33,432 nt of DNA from Brevinematales bacterium (lineage in GTDB: Bacteria > Spirochaetota > Brevinematia > Brevinematales > GWF1-51-8): the NCBI GenBank assembly GCA_013177895.1, contig JABLXV010000041.1:1-33432 (forward strand). The letters are read 5' to 3'. Made by a program: the position numbers and the translations under genes. The notes below the pieces were generated by a model. That model was not told the origin of the DNA. It ran no database searches and was given only the letters and a program-made list of their open reading frames with translations. The number at the start of each line of letters is the position of its first letter. Position 1 is the first letter of the stretch. Of this stretch, positions 7,397 through 32,600 are shown one piece after another.

Positions 7397-10033
7397 TCAC
7401 TTTGAAGGTCCGAAACCTAAAAAGCTAGCAACGGAACCAAGAACATTATCAACAACTTTTTTCCCCGCGTCAACAGCTTGTCCGCCGGCGTCTTGAATTT
7501 TAAAACCGACTTTATTTGCGGCCATATCTATTTTTTGATAATCTGTAGTGTATTGACCGTTTTTATATAATCCATTCTCAATAACCTGATGTGAATATGA
7601 TTTCATTCCTGTTAAAAATTCGTTTCCAATAAATCTTTCCTGCATGGCCATATCTAATATTTCTTTGACAGTAGAATCATTTATATATGCGTCGGTATTT
7701 TTTATTTCACTTTTAAAAGTATCATAATTCTTGAAAGCATTATCAAGTTTTGTAAGATCACCGTCGTATTTATCCGCCAAGCTCATAATTCCATTATACA
7801 TCGCTTTATTAACAGCGTTCATTCCCATATTTTCATTATATGTATTTTGAACATTCTTCCCGTCCGACCATGAAGTACCAATCCCACCGTTACCATGTAT
7901 TTGACCGGCAATTTTTCCACTTCCTCCGCCTGCTCCGCCTCCTTGATATTGTCCTTCAATATTTGCACCACCTCCCGCACCTAAATTAATACCTGTTTGA
8001 TCACTCATATATCTAGCATAAGAACCGCCTTTAGATAGATCAACATGAAAGGTATCTTTCATAACACTTTGGAACATATCATAAGGGGCAGTCCCCAATT
8101 CATTTTGAACATTCATATTAGCAAAACCTTTTCGTGTATTGAATGCTTCTGTTGATCCTCCCTTAAAAGCTAATTGAGCAATATTCTCAAACCCGCCACT
8201 CCCCATCATTCCATCCAGCCTGGCGAATTGAGGATCAGTCTGTACTTTCGACATATATGTATTTGCGAAGGCATTTTGATCGGTAATCTGAAGTTTCCCC
8301 GTCGCCGCATTGAGCCCCACCGAATTCTTGAAATCCGGATCGTTCAGGAGTTTATTCTTAAACCCTTCGTGAGTATTGGCGTAATCCATCATCTTAGAAG
8401 CGGCATTCATCTCGACACCATTCATGCTATTCCCGCCGCGCGAGAAATTCATAAGCGATTCATTCCCCGCATTCAGGTTCCCGTAAGATCTCCCGGCCAT
8501 TCCGTAATTATCCATTGTAATAGACGCGGCAGCAGCCCCAGCGCCCCCGGTCACTCCGCCGACCATACTTTGTACTACCTGCCCGACGCCGAAACCTGCC
8601 AACTGTCCAATAAAGATTAGAACGACAGCGTACATTATCATCGCAAGGTAAAAATCTACATTGATTGTCGTTATTAGCCCATCCTGGACCCGAGCGGAAA
8701 GCCCGGCAACGGAATTTACAATACTGCCGGCAATCTGGTTTTGAGCTATTAGATCAACAACGTTTTCAACCAGACGAAGCGCAGGAGCCCATAACGCAAG
8801 ATATATAAATGTAAAGTAGTATGCCTCTACGGTTTTATGTGTGCTAGGGAAAAATATAAGAATGAACATAAAAGGAAAAAGGAATACGAGAGCAATAGTC
8901 AACATCATTTTCAGCTGAACAAACATGATTTTCCCGATCTGAAATTTGATATCCGCGCTCTTGACTTCCTGAGCCATGTTTTGAGAAAGAGCATAGGAGT
9001 CTTGCGGGCTATTTGCTATTGATTTATTAAGTATCGTAAGTTTGATCATATCATCGAGGGTAGCCGGAACTTCTACATTTTTATTATCTGAATTCTTTCT
9101 TGCGACTTCCACAGCCGGAAGAAGGTTATTAACATAATCGGATACAAGGTAAAAGTCAGGGTTTTCTTTTGCCATCTGCGCGGCTTTCATTTTCACATAA
9201 TTATCTACGCTTCCCCTGACTTCGATATAATACAATCCCGCCTTCATATTCGTTGTAATGAATTGCCCTTTATTATTATCATTTACATTATTTAACACTT
9301 TAAAGATAGTTCCTGCTGTCATGTGTTTTGATAAGATCAGCATATTCGTATCATGGGTTTTCAGCCCATATTTTGCGGCGTCGTTATAAGGCATACCAAG
9401 ATACATATAATCCATAGCTTTTTTCAGATCCAATGAATTGAGTACAAAAGAAGGATCATATTGTGACGTACGGAGATCGTTAGCGACGTCCTTTAGAAAC
9501 ACACCCTTTGAGAAATCCATTACGAGCTCGCGGACTATCGGATCGTCAATCTGAGCTTCCAATACTTTCATATATGCGTCCAGTTTATCCATGAGTTTTC
9601 CAGAAGCTCCGTTCGGGGTTCTATTAACAACGGAGAAAAACGATAAATCTATCAAGTCGATAATCCATCTTTCAACCTGACTGGTAAGTGATAGAAGCAT
9701 TGCCGGCGGATAAGGCATATTGTAAACAGTGGCGCTATAAGGTTCAATTTCAGTAGGAGTCTGGTTTTCAGGATTAAGCGGATATTTAATGAGCTTGACG
9801 TCTACCGTAGATGACATAAAAAACGTAACAGCAAGAAGAGTAACTATATAAGGCGCTACTTTAATTCTCTTAAAATCAGCATTATTCATGATGAAATCGA
9901 TAAAGAAGGCTATCAGTGTAAATAAATAGAGAACAGAATTGACTCCATTTGACATGAGCCCGGAAAAGAATTCCGCGATAGCGTTAAACACTATCCGATA
10001 GACTTCAATATTTCCATTTACGAATATTTCCAT
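7397..10033 (-). CDS. traG: TraG-like mating-pair stabilisation protein (VirB6-like N-terminus), 878 aa
   Basis: The N-terminus (NIEVYRIVFNAIAEFF) matches the start of F-plasmid TraG, which reads GGEWLRNNLNAIAAFM at the same place, and the later segments SSTVDVKLIK and LSLTSQVERWI also follow the TraG_N pattern. Membrane spans are visible near residues 32-50, 63-77, 370-392, 398-420, 440-460 and 470-500. From about 500 the protein turns into a long Gly/Asn/Ala-rich hydrophilic tail, as in F TraG. F TraG acts in pilus assembly (N-terminal domain) and mating-pair stabilisation. Base composition changes near 8230: the 3' third (7397-8230) is richer in A/T than 8240-8620. ATG 10033 follows AGAGGCGG. 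Confidence 0.8.
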   Translation of the reverse strand: MEIFVNGNIEVYRIVFNAIAEFFSGLMSNGVNSVLYLFTLIAFFIDFIMNNADFKRIKVAPYIVTLLAVTFFMSSTVDVKLIKYPLNPENQTPTEIEPYSATVYNMPYPPAMLLSLTSQVERWIIDLIDLSFFSVVNRTPNGASGKLMDKLDAYMKVLEAQIDDPIVRELVMDFSKGVFLKDVANDLRTSQYDPSFVLNSLDLKKAMDYMYLGMPYNDAAKYGLKTHDTNMLILSKHMTAGTIFKVLNNVNDNNKGQFITTNMKAGLYYIEVRGSVDNYVKMKAAQMAKENPDFYLVSDYVNNLLPAVEVARKNSDNKNVEVPATLDDMIKLTILNKSIANSPQDSYALSQNMAQEVKSADIKFQIGKIMFVQLKMMLTIALVFLFPFMFILIFFPSTHKTVEAYYFTFIYLALWAPALRLVENVVDLIAQNQIAGSIVNSVAGLSARVQDGLITTINVDFYLAMIMYAVVLIFIGQLAGFGVGQVVQSMVGGVTGGAGAAAASITMDNYGMAGRSYGNLNAGNESLMNFSRGGNSMNGVEMNAASKMMDYANTHEGFKNKLLNDPDFKNSVGLNAATGKLQITDQNAFANTYMSKVQTDPQFARLDGMMGSGGFENIAQLAFKGGSTEAFNTRKGFANMNVQNELGTAPYDMFQSVMKDTFHVDLSKGGSYARYMSDQTGINLGAGGGANIEGQYQGGGAGGGSGKIAGQIHGNGGIGTSWSDGKNVQNTYNENMGMNAVNKAMYNGIMSLADKYDGDLTKLDNAFKNYDTFKSEIKNTDAYINDSTVKEILDMAMQERFIGNEFLTGMKSYSHQVIENGLYKNGQYTTDYQKIDMAANKVGFKIQDAGGQAVDAGKKVVDNVLGSVASFLGFGPSK

Positions 10034-10853: not shown

Positions 10854-11972
10854 TTAATATTTATCATAAATCGATTTTATCTCAGTATTTAGCTCATTTA
10901 TTACTTTTTCAATGGATTTTGTTAAATCTCCATCCTTTGATTGAACTTTCATTTTTGTAAGCTGCATGACAAGAAATTCAAGGTCACCAGTTATTTTTGA
11001 AGTAACCATTCCCGCATATTCTTTTACCTTTGTTTTTAATGTTTTTTTATCAGCCGCCCCTAATATATCCTGATTGATTATTGAGATCACCCCATAGCTA
11101 TTCAATAAGTTATAAGTCGATCCCTGTTTACCATTAGGATTATCAATATAGCTCTCGATATAATAATTTAATTCCTGTAAGGATTTTTCTATAGTTTCCG
11201 GGAGACCGGAAACAGATAATTTATTACCTGATACTTTTATCCCATAAGCAAGGCGTAATTTTGATTTTAATTGTTCAGTATCCAGATTCGACCAATAAGT
11301 TAGATAGGTCAATCCGTTGTAGATATTAGCTATATCCGCATTCCCGGCAAAAACACCAATTTTCATTTTCTTCGCGAGTACATCATTGAAAGCTTTTTGC
11401 CATTTTTGAAGCGTATCGTCCGGGCCTACATCCCCGCCATTTGCTTGAGCTTCTGCTGTAACCTGATAATACAATTCCATATCATCGCCGGCAATCAATG
11501 CGTAAGCTAATTGGTAACGGTTATTCAGTATTTTAGTATAGAGATTATCTGCGCCCTGTATTAATTGCATAGTGTCATTTATTTGTTCTACAATACTTTG
11601 ACTCATTATCTTTTTCATTAACTCATTCCCTGCTATCGATACCAGCATATCAATATTATTGATATCGACTAGGGATTCTAGTTTTTGTTTTGTTTTATCC
11701 CAAAATTGCCGCGCCCCATTCACCGCAAGCTGACTATCCCACCTAAAACCGAACGGGCCGAATTGAGGCACAAGATCATCCAGTGTCGGTACAGGAGTGG
11801 GTGTAAAGTATTGCGATTTTATCTTTTTATTAATTGTCACCCCGTCCTTGTTTTCCTGATAAATATTATTCCACGAGTCCACCCATTGATCAAAATCGGT
11901 TTTAACCTGTCCCCATCCCCTACCGCAGATGGCAAATAAAATCAGAAGAAATACAACCTTTTTTATCTTCAC
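10854..11972 (-). CDS. Periplasmic protein in the TraH position, 372 aa
   Basis: The start codon is GTG (11972) with GGAGGTGAAACT before it, and it overlaps the traC stop as GTGA. A Sec signal (KKVVFLLILFAICGRGWG) is followed by a helical, coiled-coil-rich mature protein with motifs such as GGDVGPDDTLQKWQ, NSYGVISIINQDILGAA and a C-terminal EKVINELNTEIKSI helix. Size, export, helical character and location between traC and traF/traG fit TraH, but the cysteines of F TraH are missing and I cannot align it securely. A VirB5-type role is the alternative. Confidence 0.5.
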   Translation of the reverse strand: MKIKKVVFLLILFAICGRGWGQVKTDFDQWVDSWNNIYQENKDGVTINKKIKSQYFTPTPVPTLDDLVPQFGPFGFRWDSQLAVNGARQFWDKTKQKLESLVDINNIDMLVSIAGNELMKKIMSQSIVEQINDTMQLIQGADNLYTKILNNRYQLAYALIAGDDMELYYQVTAEAQANGGDVGPDDTLQKWQKAFNDVLAKKMKIGVFAGNADIANIYNGLTYLTYWSNLDTEQLKSKLRLAYGIKVSGNKLSVSGLPETIEKSLQELNYYIESYIDNPNGKQGSTYNLLNSYGVISIINQDILGAADKKTLKTKVKEYAGMVTSKITGDLEFLVMQLTKMKVQSKDGDLTKSIEKVINELNTEIKSIYDKY

Positions 11973-14422
11973 AGTTTCACCTCCGTCATAGCGGCCTGGA
12001 CTTCCGATGCGACCCGCGCGATCGCCTCTTCCTGGGACATACCTGATTTCATATATGCTTCTACTCTTGTATTTTCATTTTTATTGGAGGAGAATAATAT
12101 TTGATCATAGGGAGTAGAAATTAACCTTATAGGGGTTCCTCCATTAGGTGAATACATAAATACTTCCGAATATTTTCCATCGATTTTTACTAAGGATTTT
12201 ATTATTTGTTCTTCATATTCGTTTAGAATAAGGTATTTTTGTTCTTTCAGTGATTGTAATTTTTTCTCATCATGTCTAAATATAAACTGAAATGAAGCAA
12301 TATCTCCGATTGCAGCCGTTTCTTTTGTTAAATATATATCTGTTAATGATTGAGTTCCGATAATAACACCGCCCCCATGACTCCGTACTTGACGAACACT
12401 TGCTTCCACATTTGGTGCAATATATGGATTTCTTATAAAATTATGAAATTCATCATATACAGCTAATTTTTTCTCTTTATTTCTTTTATCGTACATATAC
12501 TGCGATATTTGCGCCATTACTGATAGCATGATAGCGGTGTTTAAGTCCTCACCTACATCTTCCATTGATTGAAGTTCAATAGAATTTAATTGTTTATCAA
12601 ATATTAGACCTTCACGCTCATTAGAAAATAGATATCCATTTGTTCCTGTTGATGAATAAGGATACAAAGCATCTGAGAGGTCTTTATTTCCATCATCCAT
12701 TAATCTTTGAATAATATCATCAATAGATATTTTATTAGGATTATCACAGTTTTTGATAATATCGACTATTGTTCTTTCTATAATACCTGAAAGATTTTGA
12801 GGGAGAAATGCTTTTGGAGAAACCATGAATTTTATTAAATCCGATATCTGCCTAAATAATTGAGGTTCAATTTCTTCAATAGAATTAATGTTATTTGGAA
12901 TAGAAAGAAATGGGTTTAGGGAAGCACCGCCTCGAGAACCTATTTCAAAATAGTTCTGTTTAAGCGATTGAGCAAATTTTTTATAAGAATCTTTCCCAAC
13001 TTCAACTGTCCATTCCTTTGTTCCAATACCAAAGTATTCTTTTAATAAATTTTGAATAAAATATGATTTCCCGGATCCGGAAGTACCATATACAATAGCG
13101 CAATAATTTTCAGGGGAATTAAATAGATCATACCCAATCAGCTGGCCCCGGCGTGATACGAAGAACGTAACAGGATTGAGGGTATTCCCCTTCCAGTCCC
13201 CGTACACCGGCGCGGAGCAGGCGATATTTGTAGTAAGAAGCGATCGCGCCCGATCGAACGAATCAAAGTTTTCCGGCTTGAGCACGAGAGGCAGGGAAGA
13301 AAGGAATAGCGGAATCTGAAGCGGGGCTTCCCTTTGCATGAAATAACCCGCGCTTTCAAAGCGTGTTTTACATCGGTCGCCAAGCCGTTCGACTTCTTTT
13401 TTATCCGTAGTAAACACGGTAACGGTATGATACGCCCGGCTGATATAGTTCTGGTCCTCCTGTAACTGTTTGATGAGGTTTTCCATTTCCGCCTTTTTTT
13501 CCGCAGCGTTTTTTAGGCCCCGGAATTCATTCATAACGGCTTTTTGTCCGCGGAGCCGGTCGATTTCTTTTTCCTTTTCCCCGATCTGTACGTTATACGT
13601 CCAAAGGAATTCCTGGGGCATTTGCGCGACCTCGACGAAAGCGTCGCCGAGGATCGTAGCAGAATTATAGGGATAGATAACGTCGGGGTAGTTTTTATTG
13701 GTATATACCACCCCGTATTTTCCGCTTATTACCAGGTGATCTTCATTCGCCTGCAAGTATGCTTCCGAGTTGAGTATCTGGTCTGAAAGTATTTCTTCCG
13801 GATTATATACATACCGTTCATCCTTGACATTAAATAGCGACCGGAATATCTGAATTAAGGCCGAGGGTTCGAGGGAAAGAGACTGCGTACCGGCCTGTAA
13901 AAGAGCTTCGTGCATGAGTTTCTTTATATTATCGATCCTTTCAACCTCGAGCTCATAATTATTCACGTCAAACGATTTCGTCCGGTAAGTCACGAACACC
14001 CTGAAGTTCCGGGGCTTAAAATCCTTTCTATCTTTCCAAAACCCTTTCACACTCGCGTCATTAAGAAACTTCACATTTTCGGCATAGGACCAGAGAAGCG
14101 ATGGGTCTTTCGTTGTTTTCATCATAGTATAATTTTCAAGGTAAGGCCGGAGATACCCGTCGGACTTAACCATCACCTGGATCAGGTCGCCCGGTCGCAA
14201 ATGCTCGATTTGAAAGATACGGGCAATCATAAGCATTGATTTTTCATCTAGCCCGAGCATAGGGACGCCCTCGAAAATAAACCCCGCGGTATCATCATTC
14301 ATTATATAAAGACGGCCTTCCGGATCATACGTAAAGAACTGGAAGAATTCGCTGATAGTATATCTCCCGTCCCCTGATAAAGTCTTAAGTTCCTGTAAAT
14401 CCGTTATGATCCCGTTACCCAT
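11969..14422 (-). CDS. traC: TraC/VirB4-type conjugation ATPase, 817 aa
   Basis: A cytoplasmic T4SS ATPase. Walker A is GTSGSGKS at residues 446-453 and Walker B is LAVYDEFH with Asp657-Glu658; between them lie ASLNPFLSI and, after Walker B, VRQVRSHGGGVIIGTQSL, the expected VirB4/TraC motif order. The N-terminal half (residues 1-420) corresponds to the TraC-F-IV domain. F TraC energises pilin extrusion and assembly. The gene is compositionally split: 13140-14422 (N-terminal half) is clearly richer in G+C than 11990-13080 (ATPase half), which may reflect recombination. ATG 14422 follows TAGGAGAAA. Confidence 0.92.
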   Translation of the reverse strand: MGNGIITDLQELKTLSGDGRYTISEFFQFFTYDPEGRLYIMNDDTAGFIFEGVPMLGLDEKSMLMIARIFQIEHLRPGDLIQVMVKSDGYLRPYLENYTMMKTTKDPSLLWSYAENVKFLNDASVKGFWKDRKDFKPRNFRVFVTYRTKSFDVNNYELEVERIDNIKKLMHEALLQAGTQSLSLEPSALIQIFRSLFNVKDERYVYNPEEILSDQILNSEAYLQANEDHLVISGKYGVVYTNKNYPDVIYPYNSATILGDAFVEVAQMPQEFLWTYNVQIGEKEKEIDRLRGQKAVMNEFRGLKNAAEKKAEMENLIKQLQEDQNYISRAYHTVTVFTTDKKEVERLGDRCKTRFESAGYFMQREAPLQIPLFLSSLPLVLKPENFDSFDRARSLLTTNIACSAPVYGDWKGNTLNPVTFFVSRRGQLIGYDLFNSPENYCAIVYGTSGSGKSYFIQNLLKEYFGIGTKEWTVEVGKDSYKKFAQSLKQNYFEIGSRGGASLNPFLSIPNNINSIEEIEPQLFRQISDLIKFMVSPKAFLPQNLSGIIERTIVDIIKNCDNPNKISIDDIIQRLMDDGNKDLSDALYPYSSTGTNGYLFSNEREGLIFDKQLNSIELQSMEDVGEDLNTAIMLSVMAQISQYMYDKRNKEKKLAVYDEFHNFIRNPYIAPNVEASVRQVRSHGGGVIIGTQSLTDIYLTKETAAIGDIASFQFIFRHDEKKLQSLKEQKYLILNEYEEQIIKSLVKIDGKYSEVFMYSPNGGTPIRLISTPYDQILFSSNKNENTRVEAYMKSGMSQEEAIARVASEVQAAMTEVKL

Positions 14423-17837: not shown

Positions 17838-18431
17838 CTATTGATCGCATTTCAGGATAGCTTTTAACTTTTCAACGAGAAGCCCATTCGGGCTTTGTAC
17901 GAACTTTATTTCGACCATCCCGGTTTCCGTTTTTGTTTTAACGCCGTCCATATAGAAAACAAACTGTCCGGTAATCCCGACGTGCAATGGATCGTCCGGA
18001 CTGATCTTGAATTCCGTAGGGTAAAAATTCTTGCTCATTTTATACTGTTTTACCTGCTCATACTCTTTCAAAATTGCCTGTTCATATTCACCTACAATAT
18101 CATTCGCCAGATACTTTAAGAGGAGAGTTTGGGCGTCCTTATAGGAATACTCATTCCAGTTAAAGGAGAGATTCGCAAGATACCTTGCCTGTTCCGCGAC
18201 ATACTGTTGTGTAACTCCATTAAGACGCGCTTCAATGGGGCCATCGATCACGGATGGGACTAGCACATACGGTCGGAAAGTTACAAGATATACGATGATC
18301 AAGGCAAATACAAAATTTATAACAATACTCACCATAGTAAATAGAGTATTTCGTTTTACCGTATTCGTCATTTCCCTCGCCGTGCTATAATATTCCTGAA
18401 CTTTTTCCGGTATCTTAATTTCTCCTGCCAT
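17838..18431 (-). CDS. traE: TraE/VirB8-like inner-membrane T4SS protein, 197 aa
   Basis: A cytoplasmic N-terminus of about 30 residues, one span at about 31-52 (TMVSIVINFVFALIIVYLV), then a periplasmic domain with RPYVLVPSVIDGPIEARLNG, QYVAEQARYLANLSFNWN and a C-terminal beta part with LHVGITGQFVFYMDGVKT. This is the pattern of F TraE (VPxxID...; YLxxxAxxLxxLxxN). It assembles the inner-membrane platform. ATG 18431 follows AGGTGAG, 8 bp after traL. Confidence 0.82.
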   Translation of the reverse strand: MAGEIKIPEKVQEYYSTAREMTNTVKRNTLFTMVSIVINFVFALIIVYLVTFRPYVLVPSVIDGPIEARLNGVTQQYVAEQARYLANLSFNWNEYSYKDAQTLLLKYLANDIVGEYEQAILKEYEQVKQYKMSKNFYPTEFKISPDDPLHVGITGQFVFYMDGVKTKTETGMVEIKFVQSPNGLLVEKLKAILKCDQ

Positions 18432-18438
18432 AACTCAC

Positions 18439-18747
18439 CTACTCGTAAAAGATTTTATTCACTTTTCTTCCGGGCGGGAGATCCTTCCCGACCTCGATAA
18501 TACCCCAATCATACAATAAATGCCTGAGAAATCCTTTCGGATATCTTTCTCTAACCTTCTTTAACGCATAAGTCCCTACTCCGCCTAAGATCACAAAAAG
18601 GATTGAAAATATCCAAAGGAGCGGAAAAATGACAAACATAATAATCACACCCGCGCCAAGCGGTATAAAATCAAAAGGCACAAATCCGCCGGGGAGTTCC
18701 GCTTTTTTTCCCAGATATTTCGGGACTAAATAAAAACGATCCGTCAT
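18439..18747 (-). CDS. traL: TraL/VirB3-like inner-membrane protein, 102 aa
   Basis: Starts RFYLVPKYLGKKAELPGG, followed by two adjacent spans at about 28-46 and 48-62 (GAGVIIMFVIFPLLWIFSIL; FVILGGVGTYAL), then RERYPKGFLRHLLYDWG. Size, the early PKYL motif, the hairpin of two spans and the YPKGFxRHxLY stretch match F TraL, a VirB3-type partner of TraC. It begins immediately after the pilin stop (TAAATG) without a clear Shine-Dalgarno, so coupled translation is likely. Confidence 0.82.
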   Translation of the reverse strand: MTDRFYLVPKYLGKKAELPGGFVPFDFIPLGAGVIIMFVIFPLLWIFSILFVILGGVGTYALKKVRERYPKGFLRHLLYDWGIIEVGKDLPPGRKVNKIFYE

Positions 18748-19041
18748 TTAAAGTAAAGCCGCGCCGGATCCAGCTGCGATTGCGACAACGAACAACGCGA
18801 TAGCAGCGCCCCATCCACGCTGAGACTTCCCGCGTGATACCTGAATAGCCTCCCAAAGGCCCCATACTAATGCAGCAACCGAGATCAGGCCCAGAACGAC
18901 ATTAATAATAAAGCTTTTTGTTTTTTCAGCGACATCGGTAAGCTGACCGAATACTTTTTCTACGGAACCCGACTGCCCCGATGCCATATTCACCACCGCA
19001 AAACAAAAGAACGAAATCGAAATATTTTTGAACCATGCCAT
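18748..19041 (-). CDS. TraA/VirB2-like pilin candidate, 97 aa
   Basis: I start at ATG 19041 (MAWFKNISISFFCFAV), preceded by GGAGGTACAATAAA; the longer frame lies inside the upstream gene. A signal peptide ends near ASGQSG, and the mature protein of about 75 residues has two spans (SFIINVVLGLISVAALVWGL and GWGAAIALFVVAIAAGSGA) joined by a basic loop (VSRGKSQRG). That is the VirB2/TrbC/TraA prepilin layout. It lies directly before traL, as in F-type and other T4SS clusters. It is the likely pilus subunit exported by TraC. Confidence 0.82.
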   Translation of the reverse strand: MAWFKNISISFFCFAVVNMASGQSGSVEKVFGQLTDVAEKTKSFIINVVLGLISVAALVWGLWEAIQVSRGKSQRGWGAAIALFVVAIAAGSGAALL

Positions 19042-19057
19042 TTTATTGTACCTCCGT

Positions 19058-19420
19058 TTATTTTTCATATATTCCATTGAGTTTTTGAACTTCAATATTG
19101 AACATTATATTCGTGCATTTCTTATCAGGAATCACTTTTACAGGAAGCATATCGTTATCATCAAACTCCACAAAAAATGAGAATGAAATGACGGTATTTA
19201 ATATTACCCCTTCGACCGTCTTTTTCATACTCACCTTTTTTATTAATACGCTTTCATCCAAAATGACGATATTTTTTATTACTTTCCCCTTAAACCGGAT
19301 TGCGAAAGGTTCGTTTTGGGGAACGGTTATTTGAACAGACTGGCCTTCAGATATTTCGATCATTTTTCCATAGCTCACTGAGAACATTAAAAGCATGGAA
19401 AAGATTAAAAGTTTACGCAT
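19058..19420 (-). CDS. Small exported protein resembling the N-terminal module of TraK, 120 aa
   Basis: MRKLLIFSMLLMFSVSYG is a Sec signal. The mature part reads MIEISEGQSVQITVPQNEPF and AIRFKGKVIKNIVILDES, followed by a strand-rich segment ending VIPDKKCTNIMFNIE. This parallels the neighbouring TraK (EYTLDVPPGEAVIIQFK, RIIASVTADTDI, NPLKGTEQRIFVAYE) in motif order and spacing. I infer a stand-alone TraK-N-like paralogue without the C-terminal domain. ATG 19420 overlaps the upstream stop as TAATG and GGAGGT precedes it. Confidence 0.65.
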   Translation of the reverse strand: MRKLLIFSMLLMFSVSYGKMIEISEGQSVQITVPQNEPFAIRFKGKVIKNIVILDESVLIKKVSMKKTVEGVILNTVISFSFFVEFDDNDMLPVKVIPDKKCTNIMFNIEVQKLNGIYEK

Positions 19421-22441: not shown

Positions 22442-23029
22442 TTACTTACTAAACTCCAATTCTGGGCCCTCAAGTTCTTTATTCTGATCCTTTCCTTTAT
22501 CCTTATTATAGGGCCCGCGTTCGATGGTGTCGGCGATTTCATCGGTAATGATTTCCTTGATCGCCTTACTGTCGGCCATCTCGATACTCGTCAAGCCATC
22601 GGCGATTTCCAGAAGTTCCTTTTTCCCATCCCCGAAAAGCTGTTCGCCTGCCTTATCTCTGATCTTGTCACGTGTCATCACGATATCCGCGCCGTCGCGG
22701 TCGAGGTTTTGCCCATGCGGTTCGAATCCGATCTCTGCTAACACCTCCTGACTATTCACCCTTCCTCCCCATCCCCTGAATTCATCGATCGAAGCATTTT
22801 TCGCTGCGGTCCTCAGATATGCGACCAAGCTATCAACTTCCTGAATTTTTCCTTTTTCCACAAGGTTGAAATATTTTTCATACATCAATCCCACCTGTTC
22901 TTCGGGCGCATTCGCCAAAGCCTCGGCTAGTTCGAGCCCTCGTTCGAGCTCTTTTAATTCGTCATAAAATTTATCTTTTTTCTTATCCCCCGTCCCGACT
23001 TCGTTTTCTTTTCCGTAATCGTTATCCAT
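22442..23029 (-). CDS. Hypothetical acidic helical protein, 195 aa
   Basis: Soluble, acidic and mostly helical, beginning MDNDYGKENEVGTGDKKKDK and with ELKELERGLELAEALANAPE as a probable coiled-coil or helix bundle. The C-terminal part carries LTSIEMADSKAIKEIITDEI, matching the TSIEMA element of the 233-residue protein. No cysteine. ATG 23029 is preceded by GGAGGTAAG. No family recognised; a substrate or regulator of the transfer system is possible. Confidence 0.62.
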   Translation of the reverse strand: MDNDYGKENEVGTGDKKKDKFYDELKELERGLELAEALANAPEEQVGLMYEKYFNLVEKGKIQEVDSLVAYLRTAAKNASIDEFRGWGGRVNSQEVLAEIGFEPHGQNLDRDGADIVMTRDKIRDKAGEQLFGDGKKELLEIADGLTSIEMADSKAIKEIITDEIADTIERGPYNKDKGKDQNKELEGPELEFSK

Positions 23030-23039
23030 ATCTTACCTC

Positions 23040-23225
23040 CTACCTTGTCTCCTTACTTTTCTGAATCGACAAAAATTCTTCCAGGTTATCCATCACGGAA
23101 GCTGTCAGGTGCAATGACTTTTTTGTGAGTTCGTTTTCATTGCCGATATTCCCGTGAGATATCATATAATTTATAACGTGCACATCTTCCTTTTCTCTTA
23201 AACTTACCGAATATGGAGTTTTCAT
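23040..23225 (-). CDS. Small hypothetical protein, 61 aa
   Basis: A 61-residue basic-to-neutral protein: MKTPYSVSLREKEDVHVINY, then LTKKSLHLTASVMDNLEEFL. The C-terminal half looks helical. GGGAGGCG precedes ATG 23225, and it is 10 bp upstream of the next gene, so it is part of the operon. The layout would suit a small DNA-binding or chaperone-like protein, but there is no diagnostic motif. Confidence 0.6.
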   Translation of the reverse strand: MKTPYSVSLREKEDVHVINYMISHGNIGNENELTKKSLHLTASVMDNLEEFLSIQKSKETR

Positions 23226-23240
23226 AAAACGCCTCCCGTT

Positions 23241-23774
23241 TTAATAAAGTCTCATTCCACGGGTAAACTCTTTTTTCTTAAAATATTCCCGCTTTTCTTC
23301 AAACGACATATTGATGAATTTTTCTTTTTCGTCGCCGGTATATTTTTTACTCTTTATCATAACAGCGACTTCCGAATTCTTTTCGATCAATTCATTTTTC
23401 ATTATTCGGATTTCATAAAATGATTTTTCTTCGATGGGTTTCCCGTTCCAGTTCTCGACATCTTTTATCGACATTAATTCAATATTTTCCAACGATCGGA
23501 GTTCTTTGATTAAACTCTCCTTTTCTTCAAACCAGATTACCGCATTATTGTAAAGATACATTTCTATCAGATCGGGATTATGGTTATTATCTTGGTTTGC
23601 ATATTCTTTGGCTCTATCGTTATCATGATACTTTTTTTCGATATCTTTTCTCTTTGACCTGATGATCTGAAGATGGGCTACCATAACGACCTGTCTTTGA
23701 ATATCAGGCCGATCTGAAGTGTTCAATATCCCGTTTGCCTCGTCCTCAATTTCTTTCAAATATTCTTCAATCAT
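23241..23774 (-). CDS. Hypothetical coiled-coil protein, first gene of the transfer operon, 177 aa
   Basis: Highly charged and helical, from MIEEYLKEIEDEANGILNTS through IIRSKRKDIEKKYHDNDRAK to SFEEKREYFKKKEFTRGMRL. No signal, no membrane span, and only Lys/Glu-rich helices. ATG 23774 follows AGAGGGTAAG and lies about 35 nt downstream of the -10 box of the operon promoter. As first gene it sets the operon's 5' end; function unknown. Confidence 0.68.
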   Translation of the reverse strand: MIEEYLKEIEDEANGILNTSDRPDIQRQVVMVAHLQIIRSKRKDIEKKYHDNDRAKEYANQDNNHNPDLIEMYLYNNAVIWFEEKESLIKELRSLENIELMSIKDVENWNGKPIEEKSFYEIRIMKNELIEKNSEVAVMIKSKKYTGDEKEKFINMSFEEKREYFKKKEFTRGMRLY

Positions 23775-23808: not shown

Positions 23809-23837
23809 ATTTTATAATAATATAAATTATATGTCAA
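23809..23837 (-). promoter_or_regulatory. Promoter of the minus-strand transfer operon
   Basis: On the minus strand, a perfect TTGACA (-35) occupies 23837-23832. The -10 is TAAAAT with 17-nt spacing (23814-23809) or TATAAA with 15-nt spacing (23816-23811). It points into the 177-residue gene. The same 96-bp gap holds the leader of the divergent sigma2-FecR gene, so both units can be controlled from here. Confidence 0.7.
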
Positions 23838-23870
23838 GAGGTTTATAATAATTATTTTTGGAGGTTTTTG

Positions 23871-24764
23871 ATGGACGTTTCCAAATACAGCGACGATATT
23901 CTGGTATCCAAAATTGAAATGGCAATGAAAAATAACGATGACACGGAAGAATTCAAAGAAGAGCTTAGAAAACGTCATCAAGATAAATGCGTAGAATATG
24001 TTTTTTCATTAACGAAAGATAGGTACACCGCTGAGAGGATAGTAGATAATCAATTCAACCGTCTTGAATTTCTCATATATAAAAATAAGTATTCCGGGAA
24101 AGACTTTTTCAACTGGATAAAACCTTTTATCCACTCCGAAGCAAAAGATATCTTCCGAAACTTTATCGTTAAGCAACGGAAGGCATTACTTGTCGCCGGC
24201 AGTTTAGCCCTTCTCCTTTTTATCATTCTTGTCCCCATGCAAATGTTCAATACCTTCCTCGGCAAAACCGGTCTTGAGGTAGAAAACGAATACAAGCTGG
24301 CATCGACGACAAAGTACGATATTCCGCTCGGGCAAGTCACGGCGGAGAAAGACGCTGAATTCAAGATCGAAGGGAACAATGAAAAGCTCTTCGCAATGCA
24401 GATCAAGAAGGGTACGGTCAATTTCAAGGTGAACCCGTTAGCCGTCGGCCAGGAATTCACCGTTAAGACTGCCGCCGCCGAATACACGGTCGTCGGGACG
24501 GAATTCACCGTTACGGTCGCTTCCAACGCTTCACAGATTTCCGTGAAGGAAGGTAAGGTCAAGGTTAAAACTCAGGGCGGCTTTGAAGCGGTAGTCATGC
24601 CCGGAATGAGCAAGACTTTCTATGAAATGTCTATCAGTACGAACGAGCTCATTACGAACACAATAACCGTGACTCCGAAGAAGGATCAAAAGGATGGAAA
24701 AGAGGGTACTGGCAAGCCGGAGCCGGTAAAGGATCTATCGGCGAAGCCGCTGACGAACATATAA
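23871..24764 (+). CDS. ECF-sigma region-2-like domain fused through a membrane span to a FecR domain, 297 aa
   Basis: ATG 23871 has GGAGG 6 nt upstream. Residues about 38-97 follow ECF sigma region 2: YTAERIVDNQFNRLEF aligns with the AEDxVQExFxxLW core, and FFNWIKPFIHSEAKDIFR with the FxxWLxxIAxNxxxDxxR end. A single span follows at about 105-123 (ALLVAGSLALLLFIILV). Residues about 148-245 are a FecR domain (IPLGQVTAEKDAEFKI, VGTEFTVTV, ISVKEGKVKVKT, MPGMSKTF). A Lys/Pro-rich tail ends it. There is no sigma region 4. In classical systems FecR is an anti-sigma partner of a separate sigma factor; here both types of domain share one chain, divergent from the transfer operon. Confidence 0.8.
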   Translation: MDVSKYSDDILVSKIEMAMKNNDDTEEFKEELRKRHQDKCVEYVFSLTKDRYTAERIVDNQFNRLEFLIYKNKYSGKDFFNWIKPFIHSEAKDIFRNFIVKQRKALLVAGSLALLLFIILVPMQMFNTFLGKTGLEVENEYKLASTTKYDIPLGQVTAEKDAEFKIEGNNEKLFAMQIKKGTVNFKVNPLAVGQEFTVKTAAAEYTVVGTEFTVTVASNASQISVKEGKVKVKTQGGFEAVVMPGMSKTFYEMSISTNELITNTITVTPKKDQKDGKEGTGKPEPVKDLSAKPLTNI

Positions 24765-24781
24765 CAGGATAGGCTATAACA

Positions 24782-24813
24782 GGGAAGTCCCGCTATAACG
24801 GCGGGATTTTCCC
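24782..24813 (+). terminator. Terminator after the sigma2-FecR gene
   Basis: A GC stem TCCCGC-tataacg-GCGGGA (24788-24806) extended by an outer GGGAA/TTCCC pairing, about 18 bp past the stop. A short T run (TTTT) sits inside the 3' arm and AATTTT follows. A plausible intrinsic terminator, though the U tract is interrupted. Confidence 0.55.
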
Positions 24814-25308: not shown

Positions 25309-26457
25309 GTGAAAGCATTTGTATTCAAACTCTACCGTTCTAAGAATAATAAGACACTTCATCAGACTGTCAATATCGCGGGTATCATCTATAACTACTG
25401 TATCGCCGTTCATAAGAAATACTACGGAGTATTCGGAAAGTCTCTATCCGCAAACCGCTTAAAAGTACATCTAACGAAGCTGAAAAAGAGAACGGAATAC
25501 GAATACTGGAAGAAGGTAGGAAGTCAGGCTATACAGGATATCGTAGAGCGGATTGACCGGGCATACTCCCTGTTTTTCAGTAACCTGAAACGGAAAGTCA
25601 AATGCGCTCCCCCGTCATTCAAGAAAGTGAAGAAATATAGATCATTCACGCTTAAACAGGCGGGATATAATCTTTTCGAGGACAACCGTATCCGTATCGG
25701 GAAGAAGGTCTATAAATACTCGAAGTCAAGGGAGATAGAAGGGAAGATAAAGACGGTAACCATAAAGAGAGATACAATAGGTGATTTGTATATATGCGTT
25801 ATCACTGATTTCAAAGATGATTGCCCTGTCCGCTTGTCCCCGAATAATGGGGGCGTCGCGTCCGGTAAAATGGCGGGGGCGGACTTCGGGCTGAAAACAT
25901 TCCTCACTCTTTCCGATGGCACAAGGCATGAGTCGCCGGAGTTCTATAAGCAGTCACGGAATGAAATGAAGAAGGCTTCCCGCGAACTGTCCAGTAAGAA
26001 AGACGGTTCAAATAACCGGAAGAAGGCTAAGCTTTCGCTAGCCCGTGTCCATCAGAACATATCGAACAGGCGAAAAGACCATCACTACAAACTTGCGCTC
26101 GAACTCTGCCGGAAATATGACGTAATCTATTTTGAGGACTTGAATTTGAAGGGAATGAAAGCACTCTGGGGAAGGAAAGTGTCGGACTTCGGTTTCTATT
26201 CGTTTCTCAAGATACTGGAGCATATCGCCGGAAAGTACGGAACTGAAATACGGTACATCGGACGGTTTGAACCGTCCTCGAAAACCTGTTCTGTATGCGG
26301 ATACATCTATGAGGGTATGACGCTTAGGGAAAGGGAATGGGAATGCCCGGAGTGCGGTACGTTGCATGATAGAGACCTGAACGCTGCAAATAATATTCTT
26401 AAGGTAGGGGCATCTACCTTTCGGGGAGAGGACGTAAGACCCGCGCAAGCGGGCTGA
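25309..26457 (+). CDS. tnpB: TnpB, IS605-family RNA-guided DNA endonuclease, 382 aa
   Basis: GTG start at 25309 with AAGGAG 10 nt upstream. The N-terminus (MKAFVFKLYRSKNNKTLHQT) is the usual TnpB/OrfB helix-turn-helix-type start. The RuvC-like site is intact: Asp192 in GADFGLK, Glu276 in IYFEDLNLKGM, and the HDRDLNAANN motif with Asp354/Asp356. A zinc finger uses Cys327, Cys330, Cys346 and Cys349 (CSVCG, CPECG). Length is normal for the family. TnpB uses an omega RNA from the element's 3' end to cut DNA next to a TAM identical to the insertion target, promoting retention of the element. Confidence 0.95.
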   Translation: MKAFVFKLYRSKNNKTLHQTVNIAGIIYNYCIAVHKKYYGVFGKSLSANRLKVHLTKLKKRTEYEYWKKVGSQAIQDIVERIDRAYSLFFSNLKRKVKCAPPSFKKVKKYRSFTLKQAGYNLFEDNRIRIGKKVYKYSKSREIEGKIKTVTIKRDTIGDLYICVITDFKDDCPVRLSPNNGGVASGKMAGADFGLKTFLTLSDGTRHESPEFYKQSRNEMKKASRELSSKKDGSNNRKKAKLSLARVHQNISNRRKDHHYKLALELCRKYDVIYFEDLNLKGMKALWGRKVSDFGFYSFLKILEHIAGKYGTEIRYIGRFEPSSKTCSVCGYIYEGMTLREREWECPECGTLHDRDLNAANNILKVGASTFRGEDVRPAQAG

Positions 26458-26506
26458 CCTCGACGATCCGAGAATCTCCGTGGCTTTAGCATGGAGAGTA
26501 TGTCAA
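26360..26506 (+). ncRNA. Predicted omega RNA (reRNA) of the IS605-family element
   Basis: By analogy with characterised TnpB systems, the RNA overlaps the 3' end of tnpB and ends at the element's right end, with the guide taken from flanking DNA after TCAA (26507 onward). Conserved between the two right ends are hairpins CCCGC-gcaa-GCGGG (about 26441-26454) and the subterminal CTCC/GGAG hairpin (26476-26496). The seven substitutions between copies mostly lie outside these stems. The 5' limit is a guess. Confidence 0.55.
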
Positions 26507-26550
26507 CCCAGCGAATTTTCCCAATTCGTCTGAAGATAAGGGAGGAATTG

Positions 26551-27834
26551 ATGGATAACAACGAAATATACGACTTTAAAAAAGATGTCACTATCATTGC
26601 TATATCTCATAATTTAACTGCGCTTGAATTACGCATATACAATACGTTAGTAATGTACGCTCAAAAATCCTCTAATAATTCGGATAGCTACAATCAGAAA
26701 TTTTCAATACCTTTAAGAACACTGATGGATATGTCATACTATAAATCCAAAAATTACAGATATTTTCTAAAATCATTGGAAGCAATTAAAAAGACGGAGG
26801 TCAAGATTGACCTTTTGAATGATAAATTAAAAGGAAATTATTTATCTGCATATTTATGCTCACAAATATCCTTTTATGAAGATCAGCCGGGTTTAGTCTT
26901 TTACGAGTTTTCAAGTGATATTGTAAAGCTTGTCCTGGATCCGAAGAAGTATGCACCTTTACAGCTGATGATAACTAATCAGCTTGAAAGTAAATTTTCT
27001 ATGATACTTTACGGCTTGATCCAGTTTTACCGTAAGGTTGAAATTCCTGAAATGGATATCATGAAATTTCGGGAATTATTCGGGATTTTGAATAAATACG
27101 AATCTCCGGCACATATAATGAATGAGGTACTTAAACCTGCGGTCAATGAAATCAATCATTCCCCGCAAATTCCTTATATCGTTACTTTTAAATTTTTACC
27201 CGAGGGAGCAAAGATTAAGAAAAGTATAAAGTTCCGTTTTTCCGCTAAGAATATTGCGATCGGAGAAAGTTCAATCCTTGATAAAGATATTGTACTACCG
27301 AGTCGGATATTCGACTTGATACCGTCCGCATACAGGGGACTATATGAGATCATCGAAATGCTTCAAAGATACATCGAATTGAACGGAGCGGAATATGTAG
27401 TATCGAACATGGTATATACCAATGAGAAAAATCCAAAGAAGAACTATATCGCATATCTGACAAAGGCGCTCGAGAGTGATTATGCCGCCGGTGATCGCGC
27501 AAAGAACGCAGACTTTGAAAGGATCCGCAGAGAAAAAGAAGAGCAAGAGAAAGCGGTAAAAGCCCGGCTTGAGAAAGAGGCGCTGGAAAAGATGGAAAGG
27601 CGAGAAAACCGCCGGAAATCACTCGAGGCATATTTCAACGATCTCCCGGATGAGAAGAAAGAGGGAATTAAAGAAACCGCTATAATTCGTCTTGAATCGA
27701 TGAAATTTAAAGAGGAAGCTGATATAATAAGGTCGGGCAAAATGCCGGACAGCGATTTAGTTTCAGCTTTATGGGACACGGAATTCTTCAATGCGATCGA
27801 AAATACTATGAAAGGAGAATATATTGCAGATTAA
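26551..27834 (+). CDS. Rep_3-type plasmid replication initiator (first), 427 aa
   Basis: I start at ATG 26551, 1 nt spacing rules met by AGGGAGGAATTG; the frame extends upstream to an ATG that lies inside the IS right end and is an artefact of the insertion. ISHNLTALELRIYNTLVMYA near residue 15 is the first-winged-helix signature of RepB/Rep_3 initiators, and SKFSMILYGLIQFYRK marks the second domain's start. Residues about 320-365 are a charged helix (REKEEQEKAVKARLEKEAL). It should bind the iterons at 24933-25200 and load the replisome. It begins a co-transcribed unit with the following three paralogues. Confidence 0.85.
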   Translation: MDNNEIYDFKKDVTIIAISHNLTALELRIYNTLVMYAQKSSNNSDSYNQKFSIPLRTLMDMSYYKSKNYRYFLKSLEAIKKTEVKIDLLNDKLKGNYLSAYLCSQISFYEDQPGLVFYEFSSDIVKLVLDPKKYAPLQLMITNQLESKFSMILYGLIQFYRKVEIPEMDIMKFRELFGILNKYESPAHIMNEVLKPAVNEINHSPQIPYIVTFKFLPEGAKIKKSIKFRFSAKNIAIGESSILDKDIVLPSRIFDLIPSAYRGLYEIIEMLQRYIELNGAEYVVSNMVYTNEKNPKKNYIAYLTKALESDYAAGDRAKNADFERIRREKEEQEKAVKARLEKEALEKMERRENRRKSLEAYFNDLPDEKKEGIKETAIIRLESMKFKEEADIIRSGKMPDSDLVSALWDTEFFNAIENTMKGEYIAD

Positions 27835-28243
27835 CGAGTTATACAACAAATCTTATCTGGGCGGCGCTGTACGCTTCATTGCGGCCACAAAACCCGCTGA
27901 ATACTTCTGCAAAGAGATGAATATCATGATCCTTCACTCGGAAGATCTCGAGAAAAGCGAGGATCCCTATTATGCGTACCGCGAGATAGTGATCACGCCG
28001 GTATACGATCACGCAATGGAACGGGAATACCTTTATGAATTCACAAAAGGAATGACGAAGCTCACTATTGTATTTGTATTCCACGCAACCCGGAAGCTGG
28101 ACTTACCGGAAGTTAAGAACGCACTGGGATTAATATACCAGGATTGGCAGGATGTCGTCAATAATATGACAGATAGCAATAGCATGGAAGAAGTTCAGAA
28201 AGAGGCTTGGAATAAGTTTTTAGATCTGAATAAAGATAACTAG
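27824..28243 (+). CDS. First of three tandem paralogues, function unknown, 139 aa
   Basis: TTG start at 27824 with AAAGGAG 7 nt upstream, overlapping the rep stop by 11 bp. The protein has the features shared with the next two genes: an early LYNKSYLGGAVRFI, a cysteine (YFCKEM), a strand ending REIVITP, EREYLYEF, a hydrophobic strand LTIVFVFHATRKLDL and a helix LGLIYQDWQDVVNNM. No signal peptide or known domain. Translational overlap with rep suggests a role in replication or copy control. Confidence 0.7.
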   Translation: MQINELYNKSYLGGAVRFIAATKPAEYFCKEMNIMILHSEDLEKSEDPYYAYREIVITPVYDHAMEREYLYEFTKGMTKLTIVFVFHATRKLDLPEVKNALGLIYQDWQDVVNNMTDSNSMEEVQKEAWNKFLDLNKDN

Positions 28244-28252
28244 GAGGTTTTT

Positions 28253-28642
28253 ATGAGCGAACAGAATAATACTGAAGTCAATCCCATGTATGATAAGGAC
28301 TACGGCGATGGAATCAGATACCTGAACTACGGCTATAAAGGGGCGAAGGTATGTGTTAAAACCTTGCATACTACCGTCTATGAAGATAGCGTAATCGGAG
28401 TCATATCCGAAGCGGGTATAAAATACCGCCAGTATACAATCTCGCATTACCAGAAAAAAGAAAACCCGGTAGAATTTCTTTATGAAATTGAAAGATCTAT
28501 TATGGACGATGAGACAGGGCAGCCGATTCCGGTTTTTCTTTCATTTCTCTCCCAGAAAGAATTAACTATAGATAAGGTCCGGGATATTATCGGTAATATG
28601 TTTAAGGATATTCAAGCAATAAGCAACGCGAAAAGGAGTTAA
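28253..28642 (+). CDS. Second of three tandem paralogues, function unknown, 129 aa
   Basis: ATG 28253 follows AGGAGGTTTTT. It retains MYDKDYGDGIRYLNY, a cysteine (AKVCVKT), YRQYTISHY, EFLYEIE, the hydrophobic strand IPVFLSFLSQKELTID and IIGNMFKDIQAISN. This is the most diverged of the three. The fold appears alpha/beta with a C-terminal helix. The unit has no known domain that I can name. Confidence 0.72.
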   Translation: MSEQNNTEVNPMYDKDYGDGIRYLNYGYKGAKVCVKTLHTTVYEDSVIGVISEAGIKYRQYTISHYQKKENPVEFLYEIERSIMDDETGQPIPVFLSFLSQKELTIDKVRDIIGNMFKDIQAISNAKRS

Positions 28643-28644
28643 AA

Positions 28645-29004
28645 ATGACAGCGCAGAAACACCCTCTTTATGACAAATCGTACCTCAATGGAAAGGCGCG
28701 TTTTTTATCTTCGATGATAATGCGCGCGAAGGATTTTTGCGCTTTAAAGGACGTATCTATCCGGGAAGTGACTAGAATTTACAGATCAGGCGAAGGGACA
28801 GTAAATATTACCAGATACAAGATCACACCGTTTTTCAATCCGGCAAATGAGCATGAATATGTTTTTGAGTACATACAGAAGAACCGGATAAAAGATATTG
28901 TGATCCTGTTTCACAGCGAGATCGCGTTAGATCCGGATTACGCCCGTGCCGTCGTAGGTTATATTCACCAGGACATTACAAACCTGATGAATCAAATGTC
29001 ATAA
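28645..29004 (+). CDS. Third of three tandem paralogues, function unknown, 119 aa
   Basis: ATG 28645 follows AAAGGAG, 2 bp after the previous stop. It carries LYDKSYLNGKARFLSS, AKDFCAL, ITRYKITPF, HEYVFEYIQ, DIVILFHSEIALDPDYAR and VGYIHQDITNLMNQM, each aligning with its two upstream neighbours. A terminator (29027-29050) follows, so rep and the three paralogues form one transcription unit separate from parA. Function unknown. Confidence 0.72.
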   Translation: MTAQKHPLYDKSYLNGKARFLSSMIMRAKDFCALKDVSIREVTRIYRSGEGTVNITRYKITPFFNPANEHEYVFEYIQKNRIKDIVILFHSEIALDPDYARAVVGYIHQDITNLMNQMS

Positions 29005-29877: not shown

Positions 29878-30717
29878 ATGGCGACGACAAAAGTAGATAA
29901 GGGTAAAATATCCGGGATCGGCTTAAGAAAGCCCGCAGCGGCCGCAATCGTTCCAGCCGCAGGATCCACTGAAGTAAGTCAACTTAACCACAGATTTTAC
30001 AACGTCCGATCAGGCGCTCCCATTTCCCTGGACGAATTAAAGGTAAGGATATCGGGGAACTTCCAGCGCCGGGATAAACTGGCCGCCGAGACATTGATCG
30101 ACCTATTTTTCATATCGGCGAACAAATCCTACTACGGCCTTGAGGGGCAGTTCGAGCAATGGATCCAAGACAATTTCACCGTTCATAGAACGACGGTATA
30201 CCGTATGATAAAAGTCGTAGACGTCCTGATGGAGTATTCCGAAGGGAAGTTTAACAACGCTCTTACGGGGAATCTGGATCAGACCCTTGAGTTCATTGAA
30301 AATGCGGTAAATACAGTCGGGATGACGAAGCTCATATCGATTTCTCAGGTCGTCGAGGAAAAGCGCGACGAGATGATCGAGCACGTTATGGCCGGCGAGA
30401 TCAAGACCGCGGACGAGATCGATAAGCTCAATAAGGAATACAAGAAAGAAATGGCCGCCGGCAAAGAGAAGCCTTTAAAGGTAGAGGCGACCGCAGAAGT
30501 TATTCCTGATGAAGAAGAGGCCGTAGATCAACGTGTAATGTTCAAGAAAGCAAAAGGAAAATTCGAAGTTATTGTCTACCAGAACGGAGAATTATGGGCT
30601 GATAACTCATTATTACTGACTGTAGATCCTCAGCTGAAGAATGACGTCATTCATTCGGTTACAGAAAACATCATTTCGGAGCTCGAGAAGAATTCCGGTA
30701 AAGTCTTTAAAGAATAG
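29878..30717 (+). CDS. ParB-like centromere-binding protein candidate, 279 aa
   Basis: Directly downstream of parA. An Ala/Pro-rich N-terminus of about 35 residues would suit a ParA-stimulating tail; residues about 85-115 include WIQDNFTVHRTTVYRMIKVV, a helix-turn-helix. A helical region and an acidic linker follow (EVIPDEEEAVDQ), then a small C-terminal domain (GKFEVIVYQNGELWADNSLL) which may dimerise. The ParB/Srx nuclease-type N-terminal domain is not seen, so I call it ParB-like by position and HTH only. Confidence 0.7.
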   Translation: MATTKVDKGKISGIGLRKPAAAAIVPAAGSTEVSQLNHRFYNVRSGAPISLDELKVRISGNFQRRDKLAAETLIDLFFISANKSYYGLEGQFEQWIQDNFTVHRTTVYRMIKVVDVLMEYSEGKFNNALTGNLDQTLEFIENAVNTVGMTKLISISQVVEEKRDEMIEHVMAGEIKTADEIDKLNKEYKKEMAAGKEKPLKVEATAEVIPDEEEAVDQRVMFKKAKGKFEVIVYQNGELWADNSLLLTVDPQLKNDVIHSVTENIISELEKNSGKVFKE

Positions 30718-31679: not shown

Positions 31680-32600
31680 ATGACAAGAAAAGACCCTAGA
31701 AAATACCTTATACGTCAATCGAATACACTGTCATTCTCGAGACATAATCTGAATGCCGTCGAAAAACGCATTGTCTATCTATTGGTATCACGGTTAAAGC
31801 CTGACGACAAGGCATTTCAGGAATACGAATTCACGGTTCAGGAACTACTGAAAGGTATAGATTTAGGCCACAATAATCATCAATATCTCAAATCCACAAC
31901 GGAAAGCTTAATCGGCAAGGTTTATCTTTTACCTTACGAAGGCGGTTTATTACAAATCTCCCCTATCTCGAGCGCGATATATAACGAAGATAACACGATA
32001 GTAAAATTCAGTTTTGATCCGAAAATGAAAGCGCACTATATTGAACTCAAGAATAATTACACCCAATTTCAGCTTGAGATCGTCCTCGGGCTGAAAAGTG
32101 TATATTCCCAGAAGTTATACGAAATGGCGAAAAGTATTGCGAACAAGGGAGACCCATCGGTACGGCATAGCGTAAGCGAATGGAGATACCTGTTATATAT
32201 TGAGGAACATGAGTACAAGCAGTACAAAGACATGAGGAAGTACGTTTTTGAGATCGCGCAGAGGGAACTGGATGAAAAGACTGACATTCACCTTGAATAC
32301 CGGGAAGAGAAGGCCGGGAAGAGGATAAACTGGCTATGGATGGAAGTTCACAAGATCGAGAACGAGGAACAGCGTCAGGCATGGATTCGCCAGACGAAAT
32401 TCAATCAATTACCGAAGAAGGTACGCGATAAACTTCTCGCGGAAGCGGGAGCGACCGAAGGGCATAAAATCAACGACGTGGCCGCGAATGTTACGGCAAA
32501 GCAAAAAGCGATCGCGGGAGCCGAGGAAGCCGGATTATTCGATAAAAAGCCGCCGGCGATAACGGAAGCACCGCAAGAAAATCAGGACGATGAGGATTAA
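31680..32600 (+). CDS. Rep_3-type plasmid replication initiator (second), 306 aa
   Basis: SNTLSFSRHNLNAVEKRIVY near the N-terminus is the RepB/Rep_3 winged-helix signature, followed by YEFTVQELLKGIDLG and the second-domain start LEIVLGLKSVYSQKLYEMA and WRYLLYIEEHEYKQYKDMRK. Length is typical for the family. Its C-terminus is Ala/Glu-rich. It shares the family but little detailed sequence with the first initiator, so the window carries two distinct Rep systems. It is preceded by its own iterons and a strong promoter with no leader. Confidence 0.9.
   Translation: MTRKDPRKYLIRQSNTLSFSRHNLNAVEKRIVYLLVSRLKPDDKAFQEYEFTVQELLKGIDLGHNNHQYLKSTTESLIGKVYLLPYEGGLLQISPISSAIYNEDNTIVKFSFDPKMKAHYIELKNNYTQFQLEIVLGLKSVYSQKLYEMAKSIANKGDPSVRHSVSEWRYLLYIEEHEYKQYKDMRKYVFEIAQRELDEKTDIHLEYREEKAGKRINWLWMEVHKIENEEQRQAWIRQTKFNQLPKKVRDKLLAEAGATEGHKINDVAANVTAKQKAIAGAEEAGLFDKKPPAITEAPQENQDDED

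Follow-up and report, generated by a model that had tools for sequence, protein, structure and literature searches.

The gene at 23871-24764 raises the question of whether a domain related to region 2 of ECF sigma factors and a FecR domain can occupy one chain, on opposite sides of a membrane and next to an operon for DNA transfer, and, if so, what such a protein would do there. The window, by which we mean the whole stretch of DNA that was analysed, comprises 33,432 nucleotides of contig JABLXV010000041.1 from a Brevinematales bacterium (GCA_013177895.1). Its relevant features, together with those of a second locus in the same assembly, are collected in Table 1.

The gene, its protein and the plasmid that carries it

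The ORF is present where the first-pass annotation had placed it, and the protein is organized as had been proposed there, with a single span followed by a FecR domain on the outer side. Hydropathy indicates one strong transmembrane segment, and the positive charge that precedes it implies that the N-terminus is inside. The FecR match scores 33.4 bits, against the Pfam curated cut-off of 24, and covers only positions 34-97 of the 97 in the profile, corresponding to its second two thirds; Leptospira-named FecR families are among the matches. A synaptonemal-complex match was rejected as a product of coiled-coil bias. We also rejected a step in G+C content within the gene (0.40 and then 0.63 at third codon positions) as the scar of a fusion, since TraC and other genes in the window have steps that are similar or larger. 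The terminator-like stem that follows the gene suggests that it is probably transcribed alone.

On one side of the gene, across a gap of 96 bases, a run of minus-strand genes that includes the transfer genes extends from 23774 down to 715, so that the gene and the transfer operon are divergent, as had been noted at the outset. On its other side are two Rep3-type initiators and ParA. The presence of F-type transfer genes, Rep3-type initiators and ParA shows that the contig belongs to a plasmid and encodes transfer functions of the F type. The promoter that points into the operon is close to the sigma-70-type consensus and looks like a housekeeping promoter, which argues against the window protein being a sigma factor that reads it.

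Table 1. Positions of the sigma-like/FecR genes and of neighbouring or comparable features (window coordinates unless another contig or locus is given)
Feature	Position	Strand	Details
TraG N-terminal-type transfer protein	7397..10033	-	PF07916, E 1.7e-25
TraC-like ATPase, F-type transfer system	11969..14422	-	PF11130, E 8.7e-44
TraE-like, TraL-like and pilin-like genes	17838..19095	-	names inferred from gene order, and for the first two also from matches to the second plasmid
Divergent transfer operon, first gene	23241..23774	-	177 aa; no family found
Sigma-70-type promoter into the transfer operon, TTGACA-17-TAAAAT	23809..23837	-	near consensus, 11 of 12; consensus match only
GGAGG ribosome-binding site	23860..23864	+	sequence
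Sigma-like/FecR gene, whole	23871..24764	+	ATG at 23871, stop codon ending at 24764; 297 aa; bitopic, with sigma-region-2-like domain, one transmembrane span and FecR domain
Sigma region-2-like core, residues 26-105	23946..24185	+	NCBIfam, AlphaFold/Foldseek, hhalign
Transmembrane span, residues 105-127	24183..24251	+	hydropathy 2.70; charge +3 before, -1 after
FecR domain (PF04773), residues 167-231	24369..24563	+	VVGTEF type; Pfam E 6.2e-8
Terminator-like stem, 13 pairs, 3' of the gene	24782..24812	+	consensus match only; 1 found against 1.2 expected
Second gene of sigma-like/FecR layout	G000:C3:51040-51990	-	317 aa; same layout as the window protein
Small ribbon-helix-helix/CopG-like gene	L041:9966-10154	-	directly before the C3 sigma-like/FecR gene and overlapping it
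ECF and FecR gene pairs			host chromosome, L121; same order, L122, L123, L004 and L129; more distant, L043, L127, L132 and L134

Resemblance of the N-terminal domain to sigma region 2

When residues 1-104 of the window protein were compared with NCBIfam, seven of the eight matches, the best of them at 3.2e-4, were to sigma factors, and all shared one register. A single-sequence AlphaFold model, of moderate confidence, places helices at residues 26-48, 51-71, 76-86 and 91-108, and the helices expected of region 2 are present; past residue 133 the full-length model is too poor for use. Foldseek returned 11 matches in the PDB, of which seven, including the top four, are ECF sigma chains from initiation complexes of M. 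tuberculosis, none of the 11 being significant by itself (E 1.1 or worse). The first-pass annotation had proposed that residues 1-100 be compared, by HHpred or Foldseek, with sigma-70 region 2 (PF04542) and FecR; Foldseek led mostly to ECF sigma factors, but PF04542 gave no match to the N-terminus.

Profile comparisons were made with hhalign. Profiles of region 2 from ECFs of the phylum served as reference, and both shuffled sequences and 93 neighbouring decoy windows as controls. The score of the window protein was reached by 0 of 150, 2 of 300 and 0 of 200 shuffles, and one decoy of the 93, from the protein at 29878-30717, lay above it in one test. The score itself is 24, compared with 60-124 for true ECF region 2; a profile to which this query had itself contributed two of the ECFs gives 32.6 and a probability of 85 %, a value that is partly circular. 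It could be argued that the N-terminus is an unrelated helical domain, borne by an ordinary membrane FecR protein and similar to region 2 by chance, since the single tests are weak, a decoy surpassed the protein once, and a second protein of the same layout (encoded on contig C3; see below) is only marginally region-2-like when taken alone, with 2/200 to 19/200 shuffles reaching its score. We regard this as improbable, because the profile and structural matches are overwhelmingly to sigma factors in one register and the shuffles were beaten repeatedly. Neither a different fold nor an alignment with an unrelated family, either of which would have told against the original proposal, emerged from the NCBIfam, Foldseek or profile results, in which sigma factors predominate. 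The resemblance to region 2 seems real yet remote, the matches being consistent but weak, and we read residues 1-105 as very probably a strongly diverged sigma-2 domain.

The absence of region 4, also pointed out in the first-pass annotation, is evident: profile comparison detects no region-4 signal in the window protein, and there is no space for such a domain between residue 105 and the span. The region 2.2 motif reads AERIVDNQF (TAERIVDNQF with the preceding residue), as against AEDLxQExF in ECF sigma factors, and TKELVTSFF stands at this position in the C3 protein, such that the positions through which region 2.2 binds core RNA polymerase (the DAED and Q-E residues) are altered in both plasmid proteins. 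With region 4 absent and these residues lost, the window protein probably does not function as a sigma factor. ECFs whose region 2.2 lacks the acidic DAED motif, as in EcfP, are intrinsically inactive (PMC8999054).

A fusion of sigma and FecR domains is not in itself new, because IutY of Pseudomonas putida (group ECF243) is a single-chain sigma/anti-sigma hybrid with a working ECF sigma domain; it works with the receptor IutA, and its sigma part is freed by Prc and RseP (PMC5411451, PMC8999054). The window protein has the same order of domains (PMC5411451), namely a cytoplasmic sigma or sigma-like part, one span and a FecR-type part, which in IutY is the periplasmic anti-sigma part, and the genome encodes a full-length homologue of site-2 protease (PF02163, E 1e-60). 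Regulated proteolysis might likewise free its region-2 domain, which would serve RNA polymerase either by itself or together with a second protein that supplies region 4; split sigmas of the latter kind are known, as in SigO-RsoA of B. subtilis, where sigma-2 and sigma-4 belong to different proteins (PMC8103513). This seems to us distinctly unlikely, given the missing region 4 and core-binding residues, in which the window protein differs from IutY, and the failure to find on either plasmid contig a region-4 domain that could serve as split-sigma partner. It differs from IutY further in that no receptor gene was seen and in the location of its gene beside a transfer operon. RsoA carries sigma region 2, as the window protein carries a region-2-like domain, in a chain that lacks region 4; RsoA works with SigO. 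RsoA is not known to be a FecR membrane protein.

A second plasmid protein and the FecR genes of the phylum

The first-pass annotation had suggested a search of the genome for homologues close to F-type genes, and one was found. Contig C3, likewise from a plasmid, has an F-type system of its own and encodes a Rep3-like initiator, and its sigma-like/FecR gene lies directly upstream of a pilin-like gene, with TraL/TraE/TraC-like genes of an F-type operon in line. The C3 and window proteins are about 23 % identical (BLASTP E 3.6e-6 over residues 79-233), the aligned stretch starting late in the region-2-like part and continuing through the span and FecR, and the FecR domain of the C3 protein (PF04773) scores 35.1 bits, over the curated cut-off. 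The small CopG-like gene that precedes it stands where TraY does in F; by eye, the window gene at 23040-23225 (minus strand), which has no family match, may resemble it.

The known members of the group are these two proteins, both from one assembly. A third member was found neither in 393 genomes of the phylum nor in 72,556 plasmids or viral contigs, and searches of the genome, viral and plasmid collections with the whole protein gave no relatives. Loose plasmid searches led only to FecR genes of the usual kind or to FecR-like stretches that carry no annotation, and a search of the 393 genomes with the N-terminal part returned real ECF genes and chance matches, the readable frames of fusion-like length not being FecR proteins. 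An alignment of TraC used as query gave no matches, and none of the remaining 392 genomes sampled from the phylum has TraC.

Each of the two TraC loci in the genome lies within 10 kb of a FecR gene. Eight FecR loci in this genome exceed the cut-off, and a cytoplasmic domain of at least 100 residues occurs only in the two on plasmids; the chance that at least two of the eight would lie near TraC is about 0.7 %, with about 60 kb of the 3.6 Mb counted as near. In the phylum, a FecR regulator with a cytoplasmic start and a span is typically preceded by a separate, complete ECF gene, often overlapping it; at least nine loci, one of them on the host chromosome, show the two genes in contact or overlap. 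No separate cognate ECF sigma gene stands beside either plasmid FecR gene. The contrast originally drawn with two-protein FecI/FecR systems needs correction in that the single chain had a precedent in IutY. Like the window protein, the members of such pairs have a FecR domain behind a span and a cytoplasmic N-terminus, and two ECF-linked FecR proteins of the order (L004 and L123) share its VVGT-type motif; in the pairs, however, sigma is a complete protein encoded by the neighbouring gene, whereas in the window protein a region-2-like domain replaces the cytoplasmic anti-sigma part. The simplest history would be that an ECF/FecR pair became fused, lost region 4 and then diverged.

Alternatively, the protein could be an accessory envelope part of the transfer machinery, with a structural FecR domain and, as its cytoplasmic domain, a vestigial anchor that plays no part in regulation. 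Both copies do occur together with F-type transfer genes, and the C3 gene immediately precedes a pilin-like gene; moreover, many of the phylum's FecR proteins have no cytoplasmic part, being secreted or similar to lipoproteins. We consider this explanation unlikely, since no FecR proteins are annotated in three F-type regions of other plasmids, which argues against a core part, and since the VVGT-type motif occurs in two FecR proteins of the order that are linked to ECF genes.

A possible role for the window protein

The explanation that we tentatively prefer, and that seems to us quite possible, is that the window protein is a one-piece, region-2-only derivative of an ECF sigma/FecR system that belongs to the F-type transfer module and behaves as a tethered sigma mimic. 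The FecR part, outside the inner membrane, would read the state of the envelope or of the transfer apparatus, and the region-2-like domain would stay tethered inside and act by protein contact rather than by starting transcription. It would bind a partner of sigma factors, in the simplest case an anti-sigma domain of the host, or perhaps RNA polymerase weakly, and so adjust the expression of transfer genes or of envelope-stress genes. That the protein controls conjugation is a hypothesis suggested by the position of the gene only. Against a tethered mimic are the N-terminus of the C3 protein, which is not reliably region-2-like, the small number of members (two) and the housekeeping-like promoter of the operon.

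A partial parallel is provided by PhyR of the alphaproteobacterial general stress response, in which a degenerate sigma-like domain titrates the anti-sigma factor NepR (PMC8103513). In both proteins a degenerate sigma fold, in the window protein a probable one, is joined to a sensor part, with titration of a partner by the window protein being a proposal; PhyR has a receiver domain, whereas the window protein lies in the membrane, has FecR instead and retains only the region-2-like part. In the open-licence literature we found nothing on FecR together with conjugative plasmids or on ECF/FecR fusions lacking region 4, which is weak evidence of novelty, and no region-2-only tethered form tied to conjugation.

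A broader proposal, which we think rather unlikely, is that a plasmid-borne family of tethered sigma-2 mimic/FecR proteins is standard in the F-type modules of this lineage and taps or jams host ECF/FecR signalling, thereby deciding when transfer takes place. If a tethered mimic of this kind exists, conjugative plasmids would own a one-protein device leading from envelope to cytoplasm, a host-type sigma pathway minus its transcription half, and transfer would be coupled to the state of the envelope in a new way. It would also be the first membrane-tethered sigma mimic, as far as the open-licence literature searched shows.

Several other features of the window may be noted. The transfer-operon protein encoded at 22442-23029 (minus strand) contains a short stretch, VAYLRTAAKNASIDEFR, that is like sigma regions 2.3-2.4. 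With this segment NCBIfam gave only two matches, both to sigma-70 factors and both weak (0.06 and 0.12), and shuffle tests were marginal or negative; if the resemblance were real, there would be two sigma-like proteins at the locus. An IS605-type OrfB/TnpB gene (25309-26457, plus strand) adjoins the sigma-like/FecR gene, and bases 1-80 of the window read like the end of this OrfB/TnpB gene, so the contig seems to begin inside another copy. Three successive small ORFs at 27824-29004 (plus strand) resemble diverged tandem copies (LYxKSYLxGxxRF...), and no family was found for those of the three that were tested. The two Rep3-type initiators (26491-27834 and 31680-32600, both plus strand) are different from each other, and the second, by eye, strongly resembles the one on contig C3.
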